From: Chitinophagaceae bacterium
GTDB taxonomy: Bacteria > Bacteroidota > Bacteroidia > Chitinophagales > Chitinophagaceae
Assembly: GCA_028288595.1 (NCBI GenBank)
Contig: JAQBNK010000172.1
Span: 1-36,440, forward strand
Direction of reading: 5' to 3'
DNA length: 36,440 bases
Numbering within the stretch: position 1 is the first letter of the stretch; each line of letters starts with the position of its first letter. Below are positions 2,278 through 27,423 of this stretch, one piece after another. The position numbers and the translations under genes are program-made. A model generated the notes under the pieces. It was not told where the DNA came from. It was given only the letters and a program-made list of their open reading frames with translations, and ran no database searches.

Positions 2278-4125
2278 ATGAGTGATGAAATAAAACATGA
2301 ATGTGGCCTCGCCTACATTCGATTAAGAAAACCTTTCTCGTGGTATCTCCGGCAATACGGAACAGTGCTTTACGGGATCAATAAGCTCTACCTTTTAATG
2401 GAAAAACAACACAACCGCGGCCAGGATGGCGCCGGTGTTGCAAGTGTAAAATTAAATGTAGAACCCGGTTATCCTTTTCTTCAAAGGATCCGCAGTAATG
2501 CACAGCAGCCTATTGCTGATATTTTTTTTCAAATTGGTAAAGCAGTAGAAGACCTTGAGAAATATCAGCCGGGTATTCAGCAGCATCCCGGGCAGATGAA
2601 AGGTCATCTCCCGTTTCTTGGCGAATTGTTGCTGGGACATTTACGGTATGGCACTCAAGGAAAAAACAATGTGGAATTTTGTCATCCCTTCATCAAAAAA
2701 GATGTGGCGCCTGGTCGCAATCTTGCACTTGCAGGAAATTTCAATCTGGTGAATACCGAAGAGCTTTTTAAATTCATCGATTCGTCTCCAGGGCCCTTTC
2801 AAAAACAAAGTGACCTTGCGGCGATGATGGAAGTAATACATCATTTCCTTATTAAAGAGGATGAAATTTCTCCTAACGCCGCTAATGTTTTTAAAGTACT
2901 ACAAAACGCTGCTTCATTATTTGACGGAGGATATACAATTGGCGGCCTGCTGGGCAATGGCCACAGCTTCGTGTTGCGTGATGCTCATGGAATAAGACCA
3001 GCTTATTATTACGCCAATGATGAAATGATTGTAGCCGCAAGTGAAAGAGCAGCTATCAGAACATCCTTTAACGTGGGCGAAAATGAAGTGATGGAACTAA
3101 TGCCCGGACATGCTTTAATTGTTGATGATGAAGGCAACTATAGCGTAAAGCAGGTACTGGAGCCTAAAGAAAGAAGAGCCTGTAGTTTCGAAAGGATTTA
3201 TTTCAGCCGGGGTAGTGATGAAAAAATTTACCGCGAAAGAATTGCATTGGGATATCATCTGAGTGAAGAAGTTCTTGAAGCGGTTAACTATGATTTAAAA
3301 AATACGATCTTCTCGTATATTCCAAATACCGCCGAAGTAGCCTATTTCGGTTTAGTAAAAGGGATGGAGAGTTATTTAAATCAAAAAAAGGTTGAGCGCA
3401 TTTTAAGCTGGGGTACAGATATAACTGAAGAGAAGCTGAATGAAATGATCAACCGGAAAATCAGGCAGGAAAAAATTGCTATAAAAGATGTGAAGCTCCG
3501 CACTTTTATTACTGAAGACACGAACAGGAACGAGATGGTGCAACACGTTTATGATATTACCTACGGAACTGTTCGCAAAAATGAAGATACCCTTGTTGTA
3601 ATTGATGATTCAATTGTACGTGGCACAACATTGAAAGAAAGTATTGTAAGAATGCTTGGCCGCCTTCAACCGAAAAAAATAATTGTGGTTTCTTCTGCTC
3701 CGCAAATTCGCTACCCGGATTGTTATGGCATCGATATGAGTAAGCTGGGTGATTTTATTGCATTCAAAGCGGCCGTTCAGTTGTTAAAAGAAACCAGGCA
3801 GGAAAGTGTACTGGATGAGGTTTATGAACAAATAAAAAAACTGGAAGAATTTGGTGAGCTGCATACAGAAAATGTAGTGCGCCAGATTTACAAACCATTC
3901 GCAACAGAAGCAATCTCCAATAAGATTGCACAATTGATTACTCCCCCGGATGTAAAAATTCCGGTGCAGGTAATTTACCAGAGAATAGAAAACCTTCATG
4001 CCAGCTGCCCAACTAATACCGGTGATTGGTATTTTACAGGAAACTATCCAACGCCCGGCGGTAATAAAGTAGTTAACAAGGCATTCATTAACTATATGGA
4101 AGGAAAAAATGTGAGGGGATACTGA
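2278..4125 (+). CDS. Amidophosphoribosyltransferase-like protein (long Bacteroidetes form)
   Basis: The enzyme class transfers glutamine amide nitrogen to PRPP, giving 5-phosphoribosylamine, the first step of purine synthesis. The N-terminal class II glutaminase domain has Cys9 in IKHECGLA and the QHNRGQDGAG block. As in Bacillus PurF, an eight-residue propeptide would have to be removed to expose Cys as the N-terminus. The PRPP-binding loop is IDDSIVRGTT at about 442-451. At 615 residues it is some 120 longer than ordinary PurF (about 470-500), the extra length being spread as inserts and a C-terminal tail. This long form is familiar in Bacteroidetes, sometimes beside a canonical PurF, so the exact role here is not certain. 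Confidence 0.85.
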   Translation: MSDEIKHECGLAYIRLRKPFSWYLRQYGTVLYGINKLYLLMEKQHNRGQDGAGVASVKLNVEPGYPFLQRIRSNAQQPIADIFFQIGKAVEDLEKYQPGIQQHPGQMKGHLPFLGELLLGHLRYGTQGKNNVEFCHPFIKKDVAPGRNLALAGNFNLVNTEELFKFIDSSPGPFQKQSDLAAMMEVIHHFLIKEDEISPNAANVFKVLQNAASLFDGGYTIGGLLGNGHSFVLRDAHGIRPAYYYANDEMIVAASERAAIRTSFNVGENEVMELMPGHALIVDDEGNYSVKQVLEPKERRACSFERIYFSRGSDEKIYRERIALGYHLSEEVLEAVNYDLKNTIFSYIPNTAEVAYFGLVKGMESYLNQKKVERILSWGTDITEEKLNEMINRKIRQEKIAIKDVKLRTFITEDTNRNEMVQHVYDITYGTVRKNEDTLVVIDDSIVRGTTLKESIVRMLGRLQPKKIIVVSSAPQIRYPDCYGIDMSKLGDFIAFKAAVQLLKETRQESVLDEVYEQIKKLEEFGELHTENVVRQIYKPFATEAISNKIAQLITPPDVKIPVQVIYQRIENLHASCPTNTGDWYFTGNYPTPGGNKVVNKAFINYMEGKNVRGY

Positions 4126-4282: not shown

Positions 4283-4777
4283 ATGAAAACACTCTTCCTC
4301 GTGAGGCATGCGAAAAGCAGCTGGAATGATGCGTCTGTTACAGATTTTGACAGACCGCTAAATGACCGCGGCAAAAAAGATGCGCCGGTAATTGCCAAAC
4401 GTCTTCGAAAAAAAGGATTCGAAATTGATGGGTTTATTTCAAGCCCCGCTAAACGGGCACTTACAACCGCAGAAATATTTGCAGAAGAATTTGGAGTGAA
4501 GAAAAAAAAGATCATTACAATGGATGAGTTATATCAGGCATCTCCTGCTTCATTTTTTAAATTGATCAGTGAACTTGATAATGAACTTAAAAGAGTGATT
4601 GTTTTTTCTCACAATCCCGGCATTACCGATTTTGTTAACCAGTTAACAGATTCACGGGTTGATGATATGCCCACCTGTGCCGTATTTGCTGCAGAAGCTG
4701 ATTGCAAAAAATGGAAAGACTTTGCATCCGCAGAAAGGACAATGATCTATTTCGATTATCCTAAGCTTGTTGATTAA
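4283..4777 (+). CDS. SixA-like histidine phosphatase
   Basis: This 164-residue member of the histidine phosphatase superfamily has the catalytic RHAK motif with His9 near the N-terminus. It also has the second active-site histidine in FSHNPGITDF. The short length and lack of extra subdomains match SixA, which removes phosphate from phosphohistidine in His-containing phosphotransfer proteins. The closest bacterial relatives are only described as SixA-type, and the substrate here is unknown. The gene ends inside the 3' end of the convergent glycosyltransferase gene (17-base overlap). Confidence 0.88.
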   Translation: MKTLFLVRHAKSSWNDASVTDFDRPLNDRGKKDAPVIAKRLRKKGFEIDGFISSPAKRALTTAEIFAEEFGVKKKKIITMDELYQASPASFFKLISELDNELKRVIVFSHNPGITDFVNQLTDSRVDDMPTCAVFAAEADCKKWKDFASAERTMIYFDYPKLVD

Positions 4778-5852
4778 ATCTTTTAAGGAAATTTTCAATA
4801 AATGATTTTACACCGTCATTATTTATTTCCGGAAGGCAATAATTAAAGTTTGCTGCTTCTTCAATTTTCAACTCTAAATTTTCTTCCTGCGTGCAAGTGC
4901 AGAACCATTGCTGCTGAAATAATTTTTGGGCTAAATATTCCTGTTCTGTTTGCCCGGGAGTCGGAACGAGTAAAGCCTTCTTCTGTAAAACTGCTAAATC
5001 CATCATACTCGAATAACCAGAACGGCAAATAATTAATTCAGCACTATTGATCAATTGTTGCAATTCATCAGTATTTATATAATTCCGTATTGGGAAATTT
5101 GCATTTGCTATTTCACGAGCATTGTTAGTACCACGCACCAGCAAAATTTTTTCTTTAGTCTTGCTGAATATTTCAATCAATTTATTTTCTAAAATGGTTC
5201 TTTGCGGTTCCGGTCCAGATAGCACTGCGATAATATCATAAATAATATCCTGTTTTTCATCGTTTTTATTAAACCGTGATAACAGCCCGATATAACTAAC
5301 CGGCAGTTTTGGAAGTTGCTTTGGATGAGATAATATCCCTCCTAAATTTATTTCTCCATCCATATCCGGAACCCAGCATTCATTAAATTTCTCAATAAAA
5401 AAATAATTAAACCTTCTCATTATTTTTTCCACCCATAAATAAGGTGCCCTGATATTTAACTGGTGAGTGATAAAAATGCTGTGTATTTTTTTTGATCTGA
5501 ATCCATAGCGATTATCAGAAATAATAAGATCGAATTTCTGAGACCTGATAATTTTTTCTAATGCTTTATTTTCTGCAATAATAGCAGTTATGATTTTTGG
5601 CAATTGCAAAGCAATTTTAAAAGGTAACCAGCGTTTTGATTTTGCATAGGAAATATTGTAGCCGTTAAGTTTAAAACAATGGATTCCAGGAAATTCTTTT
5701 TGCAGAATTTTTTCCTGGTTTAGATTTCCGGCAACAGATACCTGGCAGCCCGCATCCATGAAATGACGAATAAGGGGAATACATCGGGTAGTATGGCCCA
5801 ATCCCCAATCCAGGGGAGCAATTAAAATTTTAATTTGTTGGTTTTGAGGCAA
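4761..5852 (-). CDS. MurG-like glycosyltransferase (GT28-type)
   Basis: The 363-residue GT-B fold protein opens with KILIAPLDWGLGHTTRC, where the glycine-rich loop after beta-1 (GLGH) is the acceptor-side motif of MurG-like enzymes. The C-terminal half has the CRSGYSSMMDL segment and TPGQTEQEYLAQKL, typical of the nucleotide-sugar-binding domain. It likely moves a sugar from a UDP donor to a lipid or glycan acceptor at the inner membrane; the substrate cannot be deduced. The coding sequence is AT-rich, with many Ile, Lys and Asn. The only in-frame start that keeps the first strand is TTG at 5852. That TTG overlaps a promoter-like TAAATTG, so the start is uncertain. Confidence 0.82.
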   Translation of the reverse strand: MPQNQQIKILIAPLDWGLGHTTRCIPLIRHFMDAGCQVSVAGNLNQEKILQKEFPGIHCFKLNGYNISYAKSKRWLPFKIALQLPKIITAIIAENKALEKIIRSQKFDLIISDNRYGFRSKKIHSIFITHQLNIRAPYLWVEKIMRRFNYFFIEKFNECWVPDMDGEINLGGILSHPKQLPKLPVSYIGLLSRFNKNDEKQDIIYDIIAVLSGPEPQRTILENKLIEIFSKTKEKILLVRGTNNAREIANANFPIRNYINTDELQQLINSAELIICRSGYSSMMDLAVLQKKALLVPTPGQTEQEYLAQKLFQQQWFCTCTQEENLELKIEEAANFNYCLPEINNDGVKSFIENFLKRFNQQA

Positions 5853-19757: not shown

Positions 19758-20203
19758 AACGCTAAGATTTCTTCTGTATGATTTTTACTTTTAGGTTTAT
19801 CGATAATATGCTCGATAACACCTTTTTCATTAATTAAAAAAGTAGTTCGTATCGTTCCCATAAATTCTCTCCCCATAAATTTTTTTAATTGCCAAACGCC
19901 ATACTTGTTAATAATCATTCTTTCTTCATCAGCTACCAGGGGAAATGGAAGTGAATATTTTTTTTCAAATTTCTTATGACTTTTTACGCTGTCTTCGCTT
20001 ACCCCTACAACTGCATAACCTTGTTTCGCTAACGCACCATAATTGTCTCTCAGGTTACATGCTTGCGTAGTGCAGGTTGGCGTATCATCATGCGGGTAGA
20101 AATAAAGCACTACCTTCCTGCCTTTAAAATCAGAAAGAGAAATGTTGTTTCCGTTTTGATCAACTCCTGAAAATGCCGGCGCTTTATTTCCTTCTTTTAA
20201 CAC
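19745..20203 (-). CDS. bcp: Thioredoxin-dependent peroxiredoxin (Bcp/PrxQ type)
   Basis: Bcp reduces hydrogen peroxide and organic peroxides with thioredoxin. The 152-residue protein has peroxidatic Cys44 and resolving Cys49 in DDTPTCTTQACNLRD, the spacing of atypical 2-Cys PrxQ enzymes. It also has the FPLVADEE block and a GTIRTTFLI strand. Length and motifs are complete. The GTG start at 20203 lies 20 bases inside the 3' end of the M23 peptidase gene, and its own 3' end overlaps the HExxH gene, so the three form one translationally coupled unit. Confidence 0.95.
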   Translation of the reverse strand: MLKEGNKAPAFSGVDQNGNNISLSDFKGRKVVLYFYPHDDTPTCTTQACNLRDNYGALAKQGYAVVGVSEDSVKSHKKFEKKYSLPFPLVADEERMIINKYGVWQLKKFMGREFMGTIRTTFLINEKGVIEHIIDKPKSKNHTEEILALWGE

Positions 20204-21983
20204 TGTTATGTTTTTTTGTTTTAGGCACGATTCTTTTCTTGCCTGTTTTTTTTAGAGCTGTATTAATTACCCTGTCCGATTTACTTACGTCATAAATTAT
20301 TTCTTTTTTATTACCTGCCACATCTTCTGCAGTTAATTTAAGCTGGCTGCGTCCGCCGGGAAAATGTTCATCCATTTTATAAATAAATTCATCGCCCCTT
20401 CGGGCAAATAACAACCAGTTACCATCCACTTCTGCCCTGAAGCTTTTTATTGTTTCAAGGTTATCATCACATCTAACCCTGATGATGGAATTATTACCAA
20501 ATACTGTATTGCTTTTCCAGCCTAACGGTTTTATTACAGGCGCCACATTATCTTCAACCAGTTTAATCACACCAAAATTTCTAAACTGCCCTTCCATCCA
20601 ATTGCCTGTCCACTTTCCTTTTACAACACCAGTATATTTATATCCTTTTAAAAACATCACAACTTTATCCCGGTTAACTTTTGCGTCTTCATTTAATTTC
20701 AAACTCGCAGTATAAAAATTATGAACCGGGATGTTGATTGAACCCACCTGGGCATTTGTTGAAATATCTCCTGCAGTTTCCATAATTCGAAATGGAACAA
20801 CATCATACAATGCATTTGAATTCATCATCATTTTTACATTGCCGGTTTCAAAATGATTTTCTTTATTGGGATTGAAAGGAATACGATCCGCAGTAAACAT
20901 CATCGATTCATCATTAGATTTATTATATTGGATCAGCAGGTTCACATGCGTTACATTTCCTGCGGCGTCCGTCAACACGATCCTGATATTATGCAACTGC
21001 TCATCACTAATATTCAAAGTTCCATCCGGCTCATTCAAAAAAGCCTGCAAATGATTTCCGGGCAACCTGAATAAATATTGTATTCCACTACCTCTTTCAG
21101 TAAAAGTTTTATAATCAATTCCTGCATTCACATAGCGTGTTTCATCGTAAGAAATACGATCAAGCGCAAATTTGCCGGCCAGTTTTTCATCCATATATAC
21201 TTCCCCTTTGTATACACCAAAATAGAAACCAGAACTATTCGTTTTGTCCTGCGCTTTCATTGCAAAACTGATTTTGGGAGAAGAAACTTTTATCACGCCA
21301 TTAGAACTGTAATCGCTGCCCGACTTTTTTAGGGAGATGGCTTTAGGGCCCGCATCATAAACAGAGTATCGCCTGTCATACCAGTAAAGGCCAGACAATG
21401 CTGGCGGAATATTATCAGGAACATCAATTCCTAAAAGCAAAGGATTAAGATTTGTCTCCGTTTTTGTATCGCGTATTTCAAAATGCAGATGCGGCCCTGC
21501 AGATGCACCGGTATTACCGCTAAAAGCAATAAACTGTCCTTTTCTTACAGGAAATCTTCCGGCCGGTAATTTAAAATCCTGCTCCCATTTTTCTTCTTTG
21601 TATTGTTTAGTTTTTACATATTCAGCAAGCTGGGGATAATACGAATTCAAATGCGCATATAAAGTAGTGTATCCATTCGGATGGGTGATATAAATCGCAT
21701 TTCCAAAACCACCCGCTTCAATACTGATACGGCTCACATAACCATCAGCCGCGGCAACAACAGGCAGGTTTTCCCGCTGGGCAGTTCTGATATCCAAACC
21801 CATATGATAATGATTGGGCCTGATCTCCCCGAAATTGGCACTCAGCGATAAAGGAATTTCCAGTGGTGACCCAAAGCCGGCATCCTGCCTTTTCAGTTCG
21901 CCATTATTTTGTTTCATTTCCTGGGCAAACAGAGCTTGAACTATAAACCAGCATGCTGCGATGAGGACGACTCTTACTATCAT
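20184..21983 (-). CDS. Secreted M23 metallopeptidase (LytM type)
   Basis: The protein has a signal peptide (MIVRVVLIAACWFIVQALFAQ) and, early in the chain, a full M23 domain. Zinc ligands are in HYHMGLD (HxxxD) and GPHLHFEI (HxH), separated by a GNTGASAG loop. M23 peptidases cut peptide cross-links in peptidoglycan, or serve as regulators if inactive; here all ligands are present. About 400 residues of beta-rich C-terminal domain follow, then a very basic tail (KKTGKKRIVPKTKKHNSVKRRK region). I prefer the ATG at 21983; a TTG at 22025 would add 14 residues before the signal peptide. Confidence 0.9.
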   Translation of the reverse strand: MIVRVVLIAACWFIVQALFAQEMKQNNGELKRQDAGFGSPLEIPLSLSANFGEIRPNHYHMGLDIRTAQRENLPVVAAADGYVSRISIEAGGFGNAIYITHPNGYTTLYAHLNSYYPQLAEYVKTKQYKEEKWEQDFKLPAGRFPVRKGQFIAFSGNTGASAGPHLHFEIRDTKTETNLNPLLLGIDVPDNIPPALSGLYWYDRRYSVYDAGPKAISLKKSGSDYSSNGVIKVSSPKISFAMKAQDKTNSSGFYFGVYKGEVYMDEKLAGKFALDRISYDETRYVNAGIDYKTFTERGSGIQYLFRLPGNHLQAFLNEPDGTLNISDEQLHNIRIVLTDAAGNVTHVNLLIQYNKSNDESMMFTADRIPFNPNKENHFETGNVKMMMNSNALYDVVPFRIMETAGDISTNAQVGSINIPVHNFYTASLKLNEDAKVNRDKVVMFLKGYKYTGVVKGKWTGNWMEGQFRNFGVIKLVEDNVAPVIKPLGWKSNTVFGNNSIIRVRCDDNLETIKSFRAEVDGNWLLFARRGDEFIYKMDEHFPGGRSQLKLTAEDVAGNKKEIIYDVSKSDRVINTALKKTGKKRIVPKTKKHNSVKRRK

Positions 21984-22034
21984 TTTTGGATTTGCTTTCA
22001 GAAAAAAATAAATCGGTCTTTTCAATTGCTATGT

Positions 22035-22112: not shown

Positions 22113-23759
22113 ATGCCCAGAGACCATTCAATAAAATCAGTGCTGATCATCGGTTCAGGACCCATCGTTATCGGCCAGGCATGTGAGTTTGATTACGCCG
22201 GAACGCAGGCTGCCAGAAGTTTGCGTGAAGAAGGAATTGAAGTAATCCTTATTAACAGTAATCCCGCCACCATCATGACAGACCCGATGATGGCAGACAA
22301 AGTTTACCTCCTGCCATTAAATGCAGAAAGTATTGAACAAATACTGGAAGAAAATAAGATTGATGCAGTGCTTCCAACAATGGGTGGACAGACTGCACTT
22401 AACCTCGCTAAAGAATCTGAGGAACTTGGCCTCTGGGAAAAATATAATGTAAGGCTGATCGGTGTAGATATTAAGGCGATCGATAAAGCAGAGGACAGAG
22501 AAAAATTTCGCCAGTGGATGTTACAAATGGGTGTACCCGTTGCTCCTGCAAAAACCGCAAATAGTTTCCTGGAAGGAAAAGAGTTTGCACAGGAGATCGG
22601 CTTTCCATTAGTGATCCGTCCTTCTTTTACTTTGGGCGGAACCGGTGGCGGATTTGTTCATTCAAAAGATGAACTTGATGAAGCACTGAACCGTGGCTTA
22701 ACCGCATCTCCTATTCATGAAGTCCTTGTTGAAAAAGCAGTGCTTGGATGGAAAGAATTCGAGCTCGAACTTTTACGGGACGCTAATGATAACGTTGTTA
22801 TTATTTGTACTGTTGAAAATTTTGACCCGATGGGAATTCATACCGGCGACTCCATTACCGTTGCGCCTGCTATGACACTGAGTGACACTGCGTTTCAGCT
22901 GATGCGTAATACCGCTATCCGCATGATGCGAGACCTCGGCAATTTTGCAGGTGGTTGTAATGTTCAGTTCTCACTGAATCCTGAAACTGAAGAAATTATT
23001 GCGATTGAAATTAACCCGAGAGTAAGCCGATCTTCTGCACTTGCATCAAAAGCAACAGGCTATCCTATCGCTAAAATTGCTGCTAAGCTTGCTATCGGGT
23101 ATTCTTTGGATGAATTAAAAAACCAGATTACAAAAACTACATCAGCCTATTTTGAACCGGCGCTTGATTATGTGATCGTAAAGATCCCCCGCTGGAATTT
23201 CGATAAGTTCAAAGGCGCTAATGATACACTCGGGCTGCAAATGAAAAGTGTGGGTGAAGTAATGGCAATCGGCAGAAGTTTTACCGAAGCCATTCAGAAG
23301 GCCTGCCAGAGTTTAGAAAATGAAGCTGTTGGTTTGGGATATTATGGCAAAAGTTTAATGCATACCGATGATCTCATTGAGTATATAAAAATTCCGAAAT
23401 GGGATCGCATCTTCCGCATCAAAGACGCCTTGATGCAGGGAGTAACCGTTAAAACAATTGTACAGGCGACACACATAGACCGCTGGTTCATTTACCAGAT
23501 CCTCGAGATCTGCAACATTGAAAAAGAGATCGCAAAATATTCACTGGATTCTATGCCGCTTGAACTACTGAAAGAAGCAAAAAGAAATGGTTTCAGCGAC
23601 GAACAAATTTCCCGCATTCTAAAAAATACCTGCACCGAAGATGAGGTATATGAAAAAAGAAAAGCAGCCGGTATTACAAGAGTGTATAAAATGGTGGATA
23701 CCTGCAGCGCCGAGTTCGAAGCGAAAACACCGTATTTCTACAGCACTTTTGAGTGTTAA
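22113..23759 (+). CDS. carB: Carbamoyl-phosphate synthase large chain, N-terminal half only
   Basis: The 548 residues correspond to the first half of CarB: the carboxyphosphate-forming ATP-grasp domain and the oligomerisation domain. Recognisable blocks are [52 protein letters not shown] and the hinge [20 protein letters not shown]. The frame stops at YFYSTFEC, exactly where a normal CarB (about 940-1070 residues) runs through a linker into the carbamate-phosphorylating half. The second half is not found after it. Either the gene is split, with the C-half elsewhere, or it is a truncated copy. The first-half motifs are intact and the reading frame undisturbed, so it does not look like old decay. 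Confidence 0.88.
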
Positions 23760-23909: not shown

Positions 23910-23982
23910 TCTTAAGCCCCTTATAATCCAGCTTTTATAAAACTTTTGCATCTTAGATTGTAGCTTGCAATCCCTTACGATT

Positions 23983-26900
23983 ATGCAGCCCGGATCAGCC
24001 CAAATATTTCAGACAAAAAATAAAACCCGCTGGAAAAGAGTAAAGTGGAGTACCCGCTTTATTATCATTCTGTTGTTTTGTTCCATCCCGGTATTCATCA
24101 TTTCAATGAGAGACCTTTTCATGCCTGTAATTCCCAACCTGGAAATTGCCCAGAGCATGAAAACCGCTTTAACTGCAGAACAAGCCCTGGCAAAAGAAAC
24201 ACCACTCAGTAAAAAATATAAGGGCTTCCGAAAATTCATCGATCTGCAATGGTCGGCTAAAAAAGGTCTCAGCCAGGATATCTTCCAAAGAAAAAAAAAT
24301 AAAAGCAAACCGATTTTCAACGATTCTACCGGTGTGCGGGCAGCGTTTTATGTTGACTGGGACCCGCAATCTTTTTATTCGCTCCGCGGAAATATCGACA
24401 AACTTAATCTGGTAATTCCTGAATGGTTTTTTCTCGATCCGAAAACAGATACCCTAATAACAAAAATAGATGGAGCTGCTCTTCGTCTAATAAAAAAGGC
24501 GGGGGTAAAGATCACACCCTTGCTTACTAATAATATTAACCAGTCCTTCAATGGTGATGTTGTGCACCGCATTTTACATAGTCCCGCAAAAAAACAGCGG
24601 CTCATTCGTGACATCGAAAAAGTTTTGCTAGAAAATAAATTCGAGGGAATTAATATTGACTTTGAAGAACTGCCGGAGAAAACAAACGAGCCGCTCACTC
24701 AATTTCAAAAAGAATTATATACACAACTGCACCAGCACGGTCTCCTTGTAACCCAGGAGGTTTCCCCTTTTAACCAGGACTATGACTATGCTGCGCTTTC
24801 AAAATATAATGACCTGGTTTTTCTCATGGCGTATGACGAGCATTCACCCGATACACGCCCGGGTACGATCAGCGGGCAAAGATGGATAGAAGCCGCGGTG
24901 GATGAGCTGGCTAAACAAGTTTCATTTAACAAGATTGTTTTAAACATGGCAGGCTATGGTTACGACTGGTCCAAAGACAGTGTTCAAACGGTAACATACG
25001 CCCAGGCACTTGTACATGCAAGTGATAATAATGCGAAGGTTGATTTTGATAACGATACTTACAATGTAAAATATACTTATACGGATGCACAAAATAATCC
25101 TCACCAGGTTTATTTAGCCGACGCGGCTACCAATTTTAATACCATGCGTTTTGCAACCGAGTATGGTCTTGCCGGTACTGCACTCTGGAGATTAGGAAGT
25201 GAAGACAGCAGGCTCTGGAGTTTTTATAATAAACCTATGTCTATTGCTGCATTACAGCATTTGGATTTTTCTGCACTCGAAAAATTGCAAAGTAAAAATC
25301 CTGTCGACTATATTGGTGAAGGTGAAGTACTTGATGTAATTGCCACGCCGCGGCCGGGGCACATTCAACCGGAACTGGATACCAGTCTTATGCTGATCAG
25401 TGAAGAGAATTATGACTCTCTTCCTTCCCAGTTTGTTGTAAGGAAATGGGGTAAAGCAGATAATAAACTGGTGCTCACGTTCGATGATGGCCCCGATCCT
25501 TTATACACCAAACAGATATTAGATACATTAGCAAAATATCATGTTCCGGGATCTTTTTTTGTCGTTGGCATAATGGCGGAAAACAATATTCCGCTTGTAA
25601 AGAGAATTTACAGGGAAGGGCATGAAATAGGCAATCACACGTTCACCCATCCCAATATGGCGGAGGTGGGAATAAAACGTGCCTATATAGAAATGGACGC
25701 CACACGTTTGCTCATCGAATGTATTACCGGTCATAGCACCATCATGTTCAGACCACCATTTAATGCGGATAGCGAACCTGAAAGCATGCAGGAATTAATA
25801 CCTGTTTCTCTCAGCCGTAATAAAAATTATTTAATGGTGGGCGAAAGCATCGACCCTGAAGACTGGGAAGCAGGTGAGATAGAGAACTTCAATGCTGATA
25901 CCGTTTTTAACCGTGTTGTGCGATATCATGAGGCTACAGATGGCAATATCATTTTGTTGCATGATGCAGGTGGCGACAGAAGTGCAACAGTAGAGGCAGT
26001 ACCTAAGATCATCAAATATTTTGAGGCACGTGGTTATACATTTACTACAGTGGCAGATCTGCTCGGAAAGAAAAGAGAAGATCTTATGCCCCCGGTACCG
26101 AGAGATAGCGGCTATTATATTATACAGGTTGATTTCGTTCTTGCTGAAATAGGATATTATTTGGGGAACATTCTTTATTCCATTTTTATCACCTTCCTTA
26201 TTCTTGGCGCCTTAAGATTAATGATCGTTGCCGTCTTTGCATATCGTCAAAGAAAAAAAGAAAAGACCCATCATTTAGATGATTTATATGGCCTGCCACT
26301 GGTAAGCATCATTGTGCCCGCATATAATGAAGAGGTAAATGCGGTAAGCTCCATTCAAAATTTACTGCAGTGTGATTATAAAAACTTTGAGATCATTTTT
26401 ATTGATGACGGAAGTACTGATGATACATTTAAAAAAGTCTCAGCCGCTTTTAATGATCATTCCCATGTAAAAGTGTTTACCAAACCAAATGGCGGCAAGG
26501 CCTCCGCTTTAAATTACGGGATCGCACAATCGCATGCAGATTTTGTGATCTGTATAGACGCCGATACTAAACTTAAAACTGATGCTGTTCGTTTAATGGT
26601 CAAACATTTTAACGATGAAAATGTGGGCGCTGTAGCAGGAACAGTTAAAGTAGGTAATGAAGTGAACCTGCTAACAAGATGGCAAAGTATTGAGTATACA
26701 ACAAGTCAGAACTTTGACCGGAAAGCCTTTGTCTATGTGAATGCAATTACGGTTGTGCCCGGAGCAATCGGTGCATTCAGGAAGGACGCTATGATGCTGG
26801 CTGGTGGATTTACAACAGATACCCTGGCCGAGGATTGCGACCTTACCATCAGGATACTTCATGAAGGATACCGAATTGCAAATGAACCCGCCGCAATTGC

Positions 26901-27423
26901 ATTTACAGAGGCGCCCGAAACGCTGAGACAATTTATGAAGCAACGTTTCAGGTGGACATTCGGCGTTATGCAAACATTCTGGAAACACCACACCGCTCTT
27001 TTTAACCTGGAGAACAAAGGTTTGGGATGGGCGGCTCTGCCGGATATTCTTTTGTTCAAATATATCATCCCATTATTCGCACCGATCGCTGATGCTTTAA
27101 TGTTTATCGGTTTGCTTTCATCCGACAGCAGGGGAAAGATTGGAAAATATTATCTTATTTTCCTTCTCGTAGATGCATTGATCGCTTATATAGCTTTTGT
27201 GTTTGAAAAAGAAAAACCCTGGAAACTGATCTGGCTGATACCCCAAAGACTTATCTACCGATGGATCATGCTGATCATTTTATTCCGCTCTATCCGCCGT
27301 GCAGCAAAAGGTGAATTACAAAACTGGGGTGTGTTGAAGAGAACAGGCAATGTAAAAGATATTGTTACACCTTCTTCCATACCAGGTCCTGTACTCACAC
27401 CTGAGCCAGTACGGGTCATGTAA
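23983..27423 (+). CDS. Trimodular GH18-like / NodB deacetylase / GT2 membrane protein
   Basis: One chain of 1146 residues joins three enzymes. After TM1 (25-42) comes a GH18-like barrel (about 115-425) whose catalytic motif reads EGINIDFEE, with the acid Glu kept at 228 and the first Asp positions replaced by Glu and Asn. A NodB/CE4 deacetylase follows (about 495-695): TFDDG 499-503, HTFTH 552-556, RPPFN, DPEDW, LLHDAGG 658-664. After a membrane segment near 725-755 comes a processive GT2 (772-990): DDGS 808, DAD 859-861, ED 950-951, QRFRW 987-991. Several C-terminal TM helices end it. It could polymerise, deacetylate and trim an N-acetylglucosamine polymer (inference). A TTG at 23965 would add six residues. 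Confidence 0.93.
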   Translation: MQPGSAQIFQTKNKTRWKRVKWSTRFIIILLFCSIPVFIISMRDLFMPVIPNLEIAQSMKTALTAEQALAKETPLSKKYKGFRKFIDLQWSAKKGLSQDIFQRKKNKSKPIFNDSTGVRAAFYVDWDPQSFYSLRGNIDKLNLVIPEWFFLDPKTDTLITKIDGAALRLIKKAGVKITPLLTNNINQSFNGDVVHRILHSPAKKQRLIRDIEKVLLENKFEGINIDFEELPEKTNEPLTQFQKELYTQLHQHGLLVTQEVSPFNQDYDYAALSKYNDLVFLMAYDEHSPDTRPGTISGQRWIEAAVDELAKQVSFNKIVLNMAGYGYDWSKDSVQTVTYAQALVHASDNNAKVDFDNDTYNVKYTYTDAQNNPHQVYLADAATNFNTMRFATEYGLAGTALWRLGSEDSRLWSFYNKPMSIAALQHLDFSALEKLQSKNPVDYIGEGEVLDVIATPRPGHIQPELDTSLMLISEENYDSLPSQFVVRKWGKADNKLVLTFDDGPDPLYTKQILDTLAKYHVPGSFFVVGIMAENNIPLVKRIYREGHEIGNHTFTHPNMAEVGIKRAYIEMDATRLLIECITGHSTIMFRPPFNADSEPESMQELIPVSLSRNKNYLMVGESIDPEDWEAGEIENFNADTVFNRVVRYHEATDGNIILLHDAGGDRSATVEAVPKIIKYFEARGYTFTTVADLLGKKREDLMPPVPRDSGYYIIQVDFVLAEIGYYLGNILYSIFITFLILGALRLMIVAVFAYRQRKKEKTHHLDDLYGLPLVSIIVPAYNEEVNAVSSIQNLLQCDYKNFEIIFIDDGSTDDTFKKVSAAFNDHSHVKVFTKPNGGKASALNYGIAQSHADFVICIDADTKLKTDAVRLMVKHFNDENVGAVAGTVKVGNEVNLLTRWQSIEYTTSQNFDRKAFVYVNAITVVPGAIGAFRKDAMMLAGGFTTDTLAEDCDLTIRILHEGYRIANEPAAIAFTEAPETLRQFMKQRFRWTFGVMQTFWKHHTALFNLENKGLGWAALPDILLFKYIIPLFAPIADALMFIGLLSSDSRGKIGKYYLIFLLVDALIAYIAFVFEKEKPWKLIWLIPQRLIYRWIMLIILFRSIRRAAKGELQNWGVLKRTGNVKDIVTPSSIPGPVLTPEPVRVM

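Follow-up and report, generated by a model that had tools for sequence, protein, structure and literature searches.

What product comes from a membrane protein that joins a GH18 hydrolase, a NodB/CE4 deacetylase and a GT2 glycosyltransferase in a single chain? The question is raised by a gene in a 36,440-nucleotide stretch of Chitinophagaceae bacterium DNA (assembly GCA_028288595.1, contig JAQBNK010000172.1, positions 1 to 36,440; hereafter the window). Its open reading frame (ORF) has no internal stop, and residues are counted here from the ATG at 23983, the start also used in an earlier note on this DNA. That note described the three domains as fused in this order with membrane segments, and both hydropathy and Pfam agree, all three domains passing their Pfam cut-offs (GH18 64.6 bits, cut-off 29.6; Polysacc_deac_1 94.9, cut-off 23.1; GT2 109.3, cut-off 23.3). 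We propose, at a probability of roughly 0.6, that the protein is a single-chain membrane maker of partly deacetylated poly-N-acetylglucosamine (PNAG), similar to MatB (or to IcaA plus IcaB) but carrying a GH18 domain as well, and working without PgaA. This proposal rests on the scores and tree of the GT2 domain, on the role of MatB in PNAG production, on the absence of any PgaA over cut-off and on the lack of a rival PgaC-like frame in the genome. A beta-1,6 linkage is judged likelier than beta-1,4.

The GT2 domain and its relatives

With NCBIfam profiles, the GT2 part scored 205.9 bits against PgaC_IcaA (TIGR03937, cut-off 422.3), 107.6 against NodC (TIGR04242, cut-off 550) and 44.9, also below cut-off, against the glycolipid enzyme HpnI. 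The fusion is the best PgaC-like frame of its genome (208 bits vs 88 for the next), and the PgaC_IcaA profile gave 169-205 bits for two actinobacterial CE4-GT2 proteins and for one fusion each from Sphingomonas, Deinococcus and Sulfitobacter. In the GT2 tree, 17 fusion-family rows and three CE4-GT2 rows group together with moderate support (90/84), the Bacteroidota fusions form one supported set (97/93), PgaC and IcaA stand near the fusion group, and NodC sits farthest out among the synthases, at the end of a branch of length 5. Identity to the fusion GT2 is 44-45% for the CE4-GT2 proteins and falls to 33-34% with PgaC and IcaA and to about 30% with NodC. The CE4-GT2 proteins, which come from Streptomyces and Kocuria plasmids, are nested beside Sphingomonadaceae (90/85), and the fusion label then needs two changes on the tree, which may reflect GH18 loss in Actinomycetota or two fusion events. 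The tree carries a long-branch warning for row L127 and for IcaA, and its members are relatives of MatB rather than MatB itself; the CE4 tree has weak deep forks and one long branch (Kocuria). A "chitinase" adjoining the Kocuria CE4-GT2 gene reached 22.9 bits, under the Pfam cut-off of 29.6.

The closest known parallel is MatB, a CE4-GT2 protein needed for PNAG in Streptomyces (PMC5972031). MatB has an extracellular CE4 domain, a transmembrane helix and an intracellular GT2, of which PgaC is the best characterised relative (PMC5972031), and its NodB-like domain is N-terminal (PMC4391728). The same order of CE4, membrane helix and GT2 is found in the fusion by Pfam and hydropathy. MatB is not described as having a GH18, however, and PNAG in that system also needs MatA, a protein with no known domain (PMC5972031). 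Judged by its sequence, the architecture is a GH18-bearing version of the known CE4-GT2 kind, occurring in several groups.

Other systems resemble the fusion in part. IcaA/IcaB and PgaC/PgaB also pair an N-acetylglucosamine (GlcNAc) polymerase with a deacetylase, in their case spread over two proteins. PgaB, like the fusion, joins a deacetylase to a hydrolase, but there the deacetylase comes first and a GH153 hydrolase follows (PMC5933820), whereas GH18 comes first here; unlike pgaABCD systems, the genome has no PgaA over cut-off. Gram-negative PgaB clades with glycosyltransferase (GT) fusions likewise combine deacetylase and GT, in operons without detectable pgaA or pgaD and with PNAG unconfirmed; their GT fusions are N-terminal, and neither "GH18" nor "Bacteroidetes" occurs in the main text; the likeness is drawn from the paper's description (Bundalovic-Torma 2020, PMC7112194). 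NodB and NodC are of the same enzyme classes and encoded by adjacent genes, but they are separate proteins and NodC is remote in the tree. Among the matches listed in a literature search whose coverage leaves out most subscription journals, no title or opening of an abstract dealt with a GH18-CE4-GT2 protein.

Catalytic residues and the GH18 site

GH18 enzymes act through Asp-x-Glu together with a Tyr-Asp pair and a Trp of the active site, CE4/NodB enzymes through Asp-Asp, His-x3-His, Arg, Trp and His, and processive GT2 enzymes carry the motifs D, DxD, ED and QxxRW, the last found also in some single-sugar transferases. We aligned the window protein with 76 copies (77 rows) from 80 Bacteroidota loci, leaving out four that are cut or frame-broken (L014, L053, L070, L073). 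Invariant in all 77 rows are N224, D226, E228, Y284, D285 and W402 of GH18, D501, D502, H552, H556, R590, W628 and H660 of NodB, and D809, D859, D861, E950, D951, Q987, R990 and W991 of GT2. This conservation is far beyond chance, and the NodB and GT2 motifs are as intact as the earlier note had found them. For GH18, the same note held that the catalytic Glu is kept and the Asp positions before it are substituted. The Glu is indeed kept, and in the window protein Glu221 and Asn224 take the places of Asp one and two in the classic DxxDxDxE, but Asp226 is retained.

Among solved structures, the best sequence match to this domain (5jh8, a probable chitinase from Chromobacterium violaceum) has GINVDFE at this site, and GINLDFE stands in the fifth-best (4q6t, a Pseudomonas class V chitinase); matches two to four have Thr, Val or His at the Asn position, and all five keep Asp-x-Glu. 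Since Asp-x-Glu is kept, Asn is also present in solved chitinases and the model fits 5jh8, we see no sign of a broken GH18 site in the window protein and rejected a degraded GH18 there. Copies from Sphingomonadaceae and Deinococcus have a hydrophobic residue at the Asn position and keep Asp and Glu. In Rhodobacterales the catalytic Glu is replaced in all five copies read, with NodB and GT2 residues intact in both of the copies checked among these five. Cutting would then not be essential across the whole family, and the hydrolase seems, by these sequences, to be the dispensable part of the fusion. Polymer cleavage, one of the activities listed in the earlier note, thus keeps an intact GH18 site behind it in the 77 Bacteroidota rows but loses its standing as a universal role. 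The Rhodobacterales variants are natural material for learning what the hydrolase does.

A chitinase-like hydrolase also raises the prospect of a different product, chitosan or chito-oligosaccharides, for which the GT2 would make beta-1,4 chains as NodC does, NodB would deacetylate them and GH18 would cut them to oligomers. The GH18 fold is nearest to chitinases and SleL, and the NodB profile (TIGR04243) matches at 101.2 bits, below its cut-off of 240. The GT2, however, lies far from NodC in the tree, its NodC score is about half of its PgaC_IcaA score, and the Rhodobacterales copies indicate that cutting is not a family-wide need. We consider this product unlikely; a NodBC-like oligosaccharide maker was set back as first choice by the GT2 tree and the profile scores.

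It could also be argued that NodB and GH18 remodel the cell wall by acting on peptidoglycan, with the GT2 serving another glycan, as the profiles closest to the NodB domain are those of deacetylases of the peptidoglycan type (PdaB 122.1 bits and PgdA 118.7, both below cut-offs) and GH18 resembles the spore-cortex enzyme SleL. MatB nevertheless shows the same deacetylase resemblance and makes PNAG (PMC5972031), and the GT2 is coupled to these domains in all 77 aligned rows, and we hold a peptidoglycan role to be highly improbable.

Topology and possible mechanism

Besides the hydrophobic segments of Table 1, two weak ones within folded domains (521-539 and 914-933) appear only at a laxer cut-off. 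Residues 1-24 include six basic and no acidic residues. On hydropathy and charge, the N-terminus is predicted to be inside, GH18 and NodB periplasmic and GT2 cytoplasmic, so that the topology check proposed in the earlier note predicts domains on two sides of the membrane and not all on one. The fifth segment (1081-1101) is weak, its family-mean hydropathy not rising above the 1.3 cut-off; the basic C-terminal tail would be outside if this segment crosses and inside if it does not, and the charge of the tail suggests inside. Four N-terminal residues (F9, R16, W17 and W22) are invariant in the 77 rows, and a similar-looking stretch occurs in Sphingobium and Deinococcus, suggesting that this region may do more than anchor the protein.

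The AlphaFold model (mean pLDDT 83.5, pTM 0.63) is good for the domains and not for their relative placement. Residues 730-1131 match the Chlorella virus hyaluronan synthase 8snc with Z 33.2 over 380 residues.

If the proposed product is correct, the cytoplasmic GT2 would join GlcNAc units from UDP-GlcNAc, and the growing chain would cross the membrane by way of helices of the protein itself, as happens in hyaluronan and cellulose synthases. The emerging chain would meet the tethered NodB domain, where removal of acetyl groups would make it cationic, and GH18 might cut or grip still-acetylated stretches, setting the length or clearing stalled chains. Were this so, the product and the way it is exported would both count as new biology, and in bacteria common in soil and water, as Bacteroidota and other groups carry the protein and at least this genome has no PNAG exporter of the known type.

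Several observations weigh against a PNAG product. No synthase or deacetylase cut-off of NCBIfam was reached among the matches listed, and in a genome that is 98.59% complete the PgaA exporter was not found, the best TIGR03939 match being 28.6 bits against a cut-off of 366.65. Three free-standing GT2 proteins (L125, L126 and L128), found in other classes of the phylum, are 44-47% identical to the GT2 of the fusion and thereby no more distant from it than the CE4-GT2 proteins. GH18 enzymes are known above all for cleaving beta-1,4 bonds, which makes the domain a poor fit to a beta-1,6 chain. Hydropathy allows more than one count of membrane crossings near the C-terminus, and model residues 729-1111 match an archaeal mannosyltransferase with Z 31.8; as the GT2 region fits both this fold and that of hyaluronan synthase, the fold does not decide between polymer and lipid. 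The MprF genes found near the fusion in relatives, described below, would also be expected of a glycolipid pathway. Finally, the enzymes most like the NodB domain act on beta-1,4 substrates, a likeness also described for the MatB deacetylase (PMC5972031).

MprF and AcvB/VirJ genes beside the fusion

An MprF-type gene lies within the read flanks of the fusion in 10 of the 80 Bacteroidota loci and was not found in those of the other 70; at least 3 kb are available on both sides in 62 of the 80. It stands upstream on the opposite strand in five Flavobacterium loci, and downstream, sharing the fusion's strand, in Ferruginibacter, Terrimonas, a Bacteroidales and two loci (L041, L050) where the MprF match reaches only query residue 156 before the contig ends. 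MprF is also near the fusion in all eight Sphingomonadaceae loci read out of eleven, five of these being closely similar Sphingobium, and was not found beside it in the five Rhodobacterales, the Prevotella and the Deinococcus loci read. Pfam runs on neighbours in three loci (L106, L023, L048) and on the copy in the window's own genome identified flippase and lysyl-transferase domains, the flippase of the Sphingobium protein (L106) being under cut-off. MprF is joined by an AcvB/VirJ-family gene in each of the eight Sphingomonadaceae loci and, among the Bacteroidota, in L048 and L074. The five Sphingobium loci (Pfam run on the first) share one order: the end of the fusion overlaps the start of a virJ-like gene, followed on the same strand by mprF-like, response regulator and histidine kinase genes. 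In a Sphingomonas record the genes around the fusion lie on both strands and are annotated as an AcvB/VirJ lysyl-phosphatidylglycerol (Lys-PG) hydrolase, mprF and a two-component pair. Kinase- and regulator-like genes, recognised by sequence clusters only, occur near several Bacteroidota fusion loci.

This recurring, though not general, neighbourhood of the fusion with MprF and AcvB/VirJ is new here; a fusion-MprF link was absent among the matches listed in the literature search. Co-occurrence points the same way. In a class sample of 335 genomes, the MprF family is present in 14 at 1e-40, with a frame of at least 850 residues in 7 of these, and VirJ in 6 at 1e-10; the fusion is present in 6 of the 14, 4 of the 7 and 4 of the 6, respectively, vs 18 of 335 overall. 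Fisher tests, uncorrected for relatedness, gave p 2.3e-5 for MprF (n=14) and 8.3e-5 for VirJ (n=6), or 1.8e-4 and 1.0e-3 without the window's own genome, and the six genomes with fusion and MprF are three same-family pairs (f1, f4, f11). In the phylum sample, the fusion is in 7 of 28 MprF genomes (p 3.2e-4, likewise uncorrected). Position speaks against a tight link, as by their coordinates fusion and mprF are adjacent in none of the six class genomes with both, the window's own included, and in one of the seven in the phylum sample (G285, which is locus L035). With different arrangements in two phyla and MprF rare in these genomes, descent alone is hard-pressed as an explanation.

In Agrobacterium, LpiA-AcvB is an operon of an MprF homologue and a periplasmic Lys-PG hydrolase (PMC13197417). 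The same Pfam-family pair is encoded on contig 59 of the window's genome and beside the fusion in some relatives, but the words "polysaccharide" and "glycosyltransferase" are absent from the main text of that paper. On contig 59 (L122:427-3713), away from the fusion, the mprF-type and AcvB/VirJ-family genes overlap by four bases in an lpiA-acvB-like arrangement.

A second parallel is the Clostridioides difficile HexSDF-HexRK locus, in which a glycosyltransferase, a polysaccharide deacetylase, an MprF-like flippase and a two-component system stand together and are required for a glycolipid (PMC10128005). By analogy, the GT2 could add GlcNAc to a lipid, a flippase such as MprF could turn it over and NodB could deacetylate it outside. 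MprF and two-component genes adjoin the fusion in some relatives too, and this parallel keeps an aminosugar glycolipid a serious rival. HexS, however, is annotated as a monogalactosyldiacylglycerol synthase and not a GT2, and HexF lacks a lysylation domain (PMC10128005). The GT2 of the fusion best matches polymer synthases, with a weak HpnI score, such a pathway leaves no place for GH18, and MprF was not found in the read flanks of most Bacteroidota loci. We rate a glycolipid product as quite improbable.

For a PNAG maker, we infer that a shared role in surface charge would be the simplest link to MprF, as a deacetylated GlcNAc polymer and Lys-PG both add positive charge to the envelope. The earlier note had suggested a self-contained synthase; a synthase in one chain remains our view, and its self-containment may be partial, given the MprF genes, often with AcvB/VirJ and two-component genes, that adjoin it in some relatives. 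We tentatively suggest, with more doubt than belief, that in two phyla a cationic poly-glucosamine maker, MprF as maker of the lysyl-lipid and AcvB/VirJ as periplasmic hydrolase could form a surface-charge module under a two-component system; in its boldest and speculative form, lysyl-lipid and hydrolase would pass amino acids to the polymer. The recurrence of MprF and AcvB/VirJ leads to a testable proposal, namely that the cell adjusts the charge of its polymer and of its lipids jointly.

Distribution and genomic surroundings

The earlier note stated that this fusion type is known in other bacteria, and it is present in 80 Bacteroidota loci as well as in Sphingomonadaceae, Rhodobacterales and Deinococcus. 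We kept 80 of the 108 relatives that a scan of genome contigs turned up; these come from Chitinophagaceae, Flavobacterium and other Bacteroidota. Full-length matches occur in 17 of 296 genomes of the phylum sample and 18 of 335 of the class sample, which share genomes and both count the window's own; any match at 1e-60 was found in 62 of the 296, the remaining 45 having the GT2 part only. Plasmid records matching at least 80% of the query number 22 (1 Prevotella, 11 Sphingomonadaceae, 1 Deinococcus and 9 Rhodobacterales), and one Sulfitobacter copy is annotated as two proteins.

Other neighbours were seen in these relatives. Four of the five Rhodobacterales loci read (L111:10015-12552, L112, L139, L140) have a DUF3131-annotated gene (776-845 residues; Pfam run on L111) after the fusion, and the two genes overlap in L111 and L140. 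Deinococcus sp. KNUC1210 has a diguanylate cyclase gene after its fusion (L105:9327-10862), a hint of cyclic di-GMP (c-di-GMP) control. Six Flavobacterium loci (L023, L025, L027, L028, L030, L031) have an extra polysaccharide-deacetylase-like gene of about 260-280 residues upstream (Pfam on L023). A transketolase-like gene, scanned in one case, follows the fusion in 18 loci, the window not among them.

Table 1. Features of the GH18-NodB-GT2 fusion gene in the window
Feature	Position	Strand	Evidence and remarks
GH18-NodB/CE4-GT2 fusion gene	23983..27423	+	1,146 aa from ATG; alternative TTG at 23965 adds 6 aa
Hydrophobic segment 1, aa 20-50	24040..24132	+	Hydropathy; after conserved basic N-terminus (QIFQT..RW...W)
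GH18 domain, aa 116-421, predicted periplasmic	24328..25245	+	Pfam; model vs 5jh8 Z 35.2, rmsd 1.9, 302 residues
GH18 motif EGINIDFEE with Asn224, Asp226, Glu228	24643..24669	+	N, D, E in 77/77 rows
NodB/CE4 deacetylase domain, predicted periplasmic	25456..26064	+	Pfam, NCBIfam; motif residues in 77/77 rows
Hydrophobic segment 2, aa 718-757	26134..26253	+	Hydropathy; model helix 711-762
GT2 domain, motifs D, DAD, ED, QRFRW, predicted cytoplasmic	26302..26964	+	Pfam; PgaC_IcaA profile 205.9 bits (cut-off 422.3)
C-terminal hydrophobic segments, aa 1013-1049, 1051-1078, weaker 1081-1101	27019..27285	+	Hydropathy

A Pfam scan of 29 window ORFs, the fusion included, gave flanks that look like housekeeping genes, with a GT28-like protein (4761-5852) and an M23 peptidase (20184-22025) as the only other glycan-related products and one ORF (2278-4125) matching no Pfam family. 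The absence of further exopolysaccharide genes noted earlier thus holds for the 29 ORFs scanned, which leave out some short ones (e.g. 4283-4777). A half-length carB and a peroxiredoxin gene are found near the fusion in 19 of the 77 loci, including the window; because these loci are close relatives, we take the recurrence as shared ancestry and rejected the pair as a conserved operon partner. The carB-like ORF upstream of the fusion has about 515-595 residues in these 19 loci. The copy in the window (22113-23759) codes for 548 residues, which match the large subunit of carbamoyl-phosphate synthase in its N-terminal half only (profile positions 1-542 of 1,058), and a 418-residue frame on contig 84 of the same genome resembles, as judged by sequence, the second half of carB.

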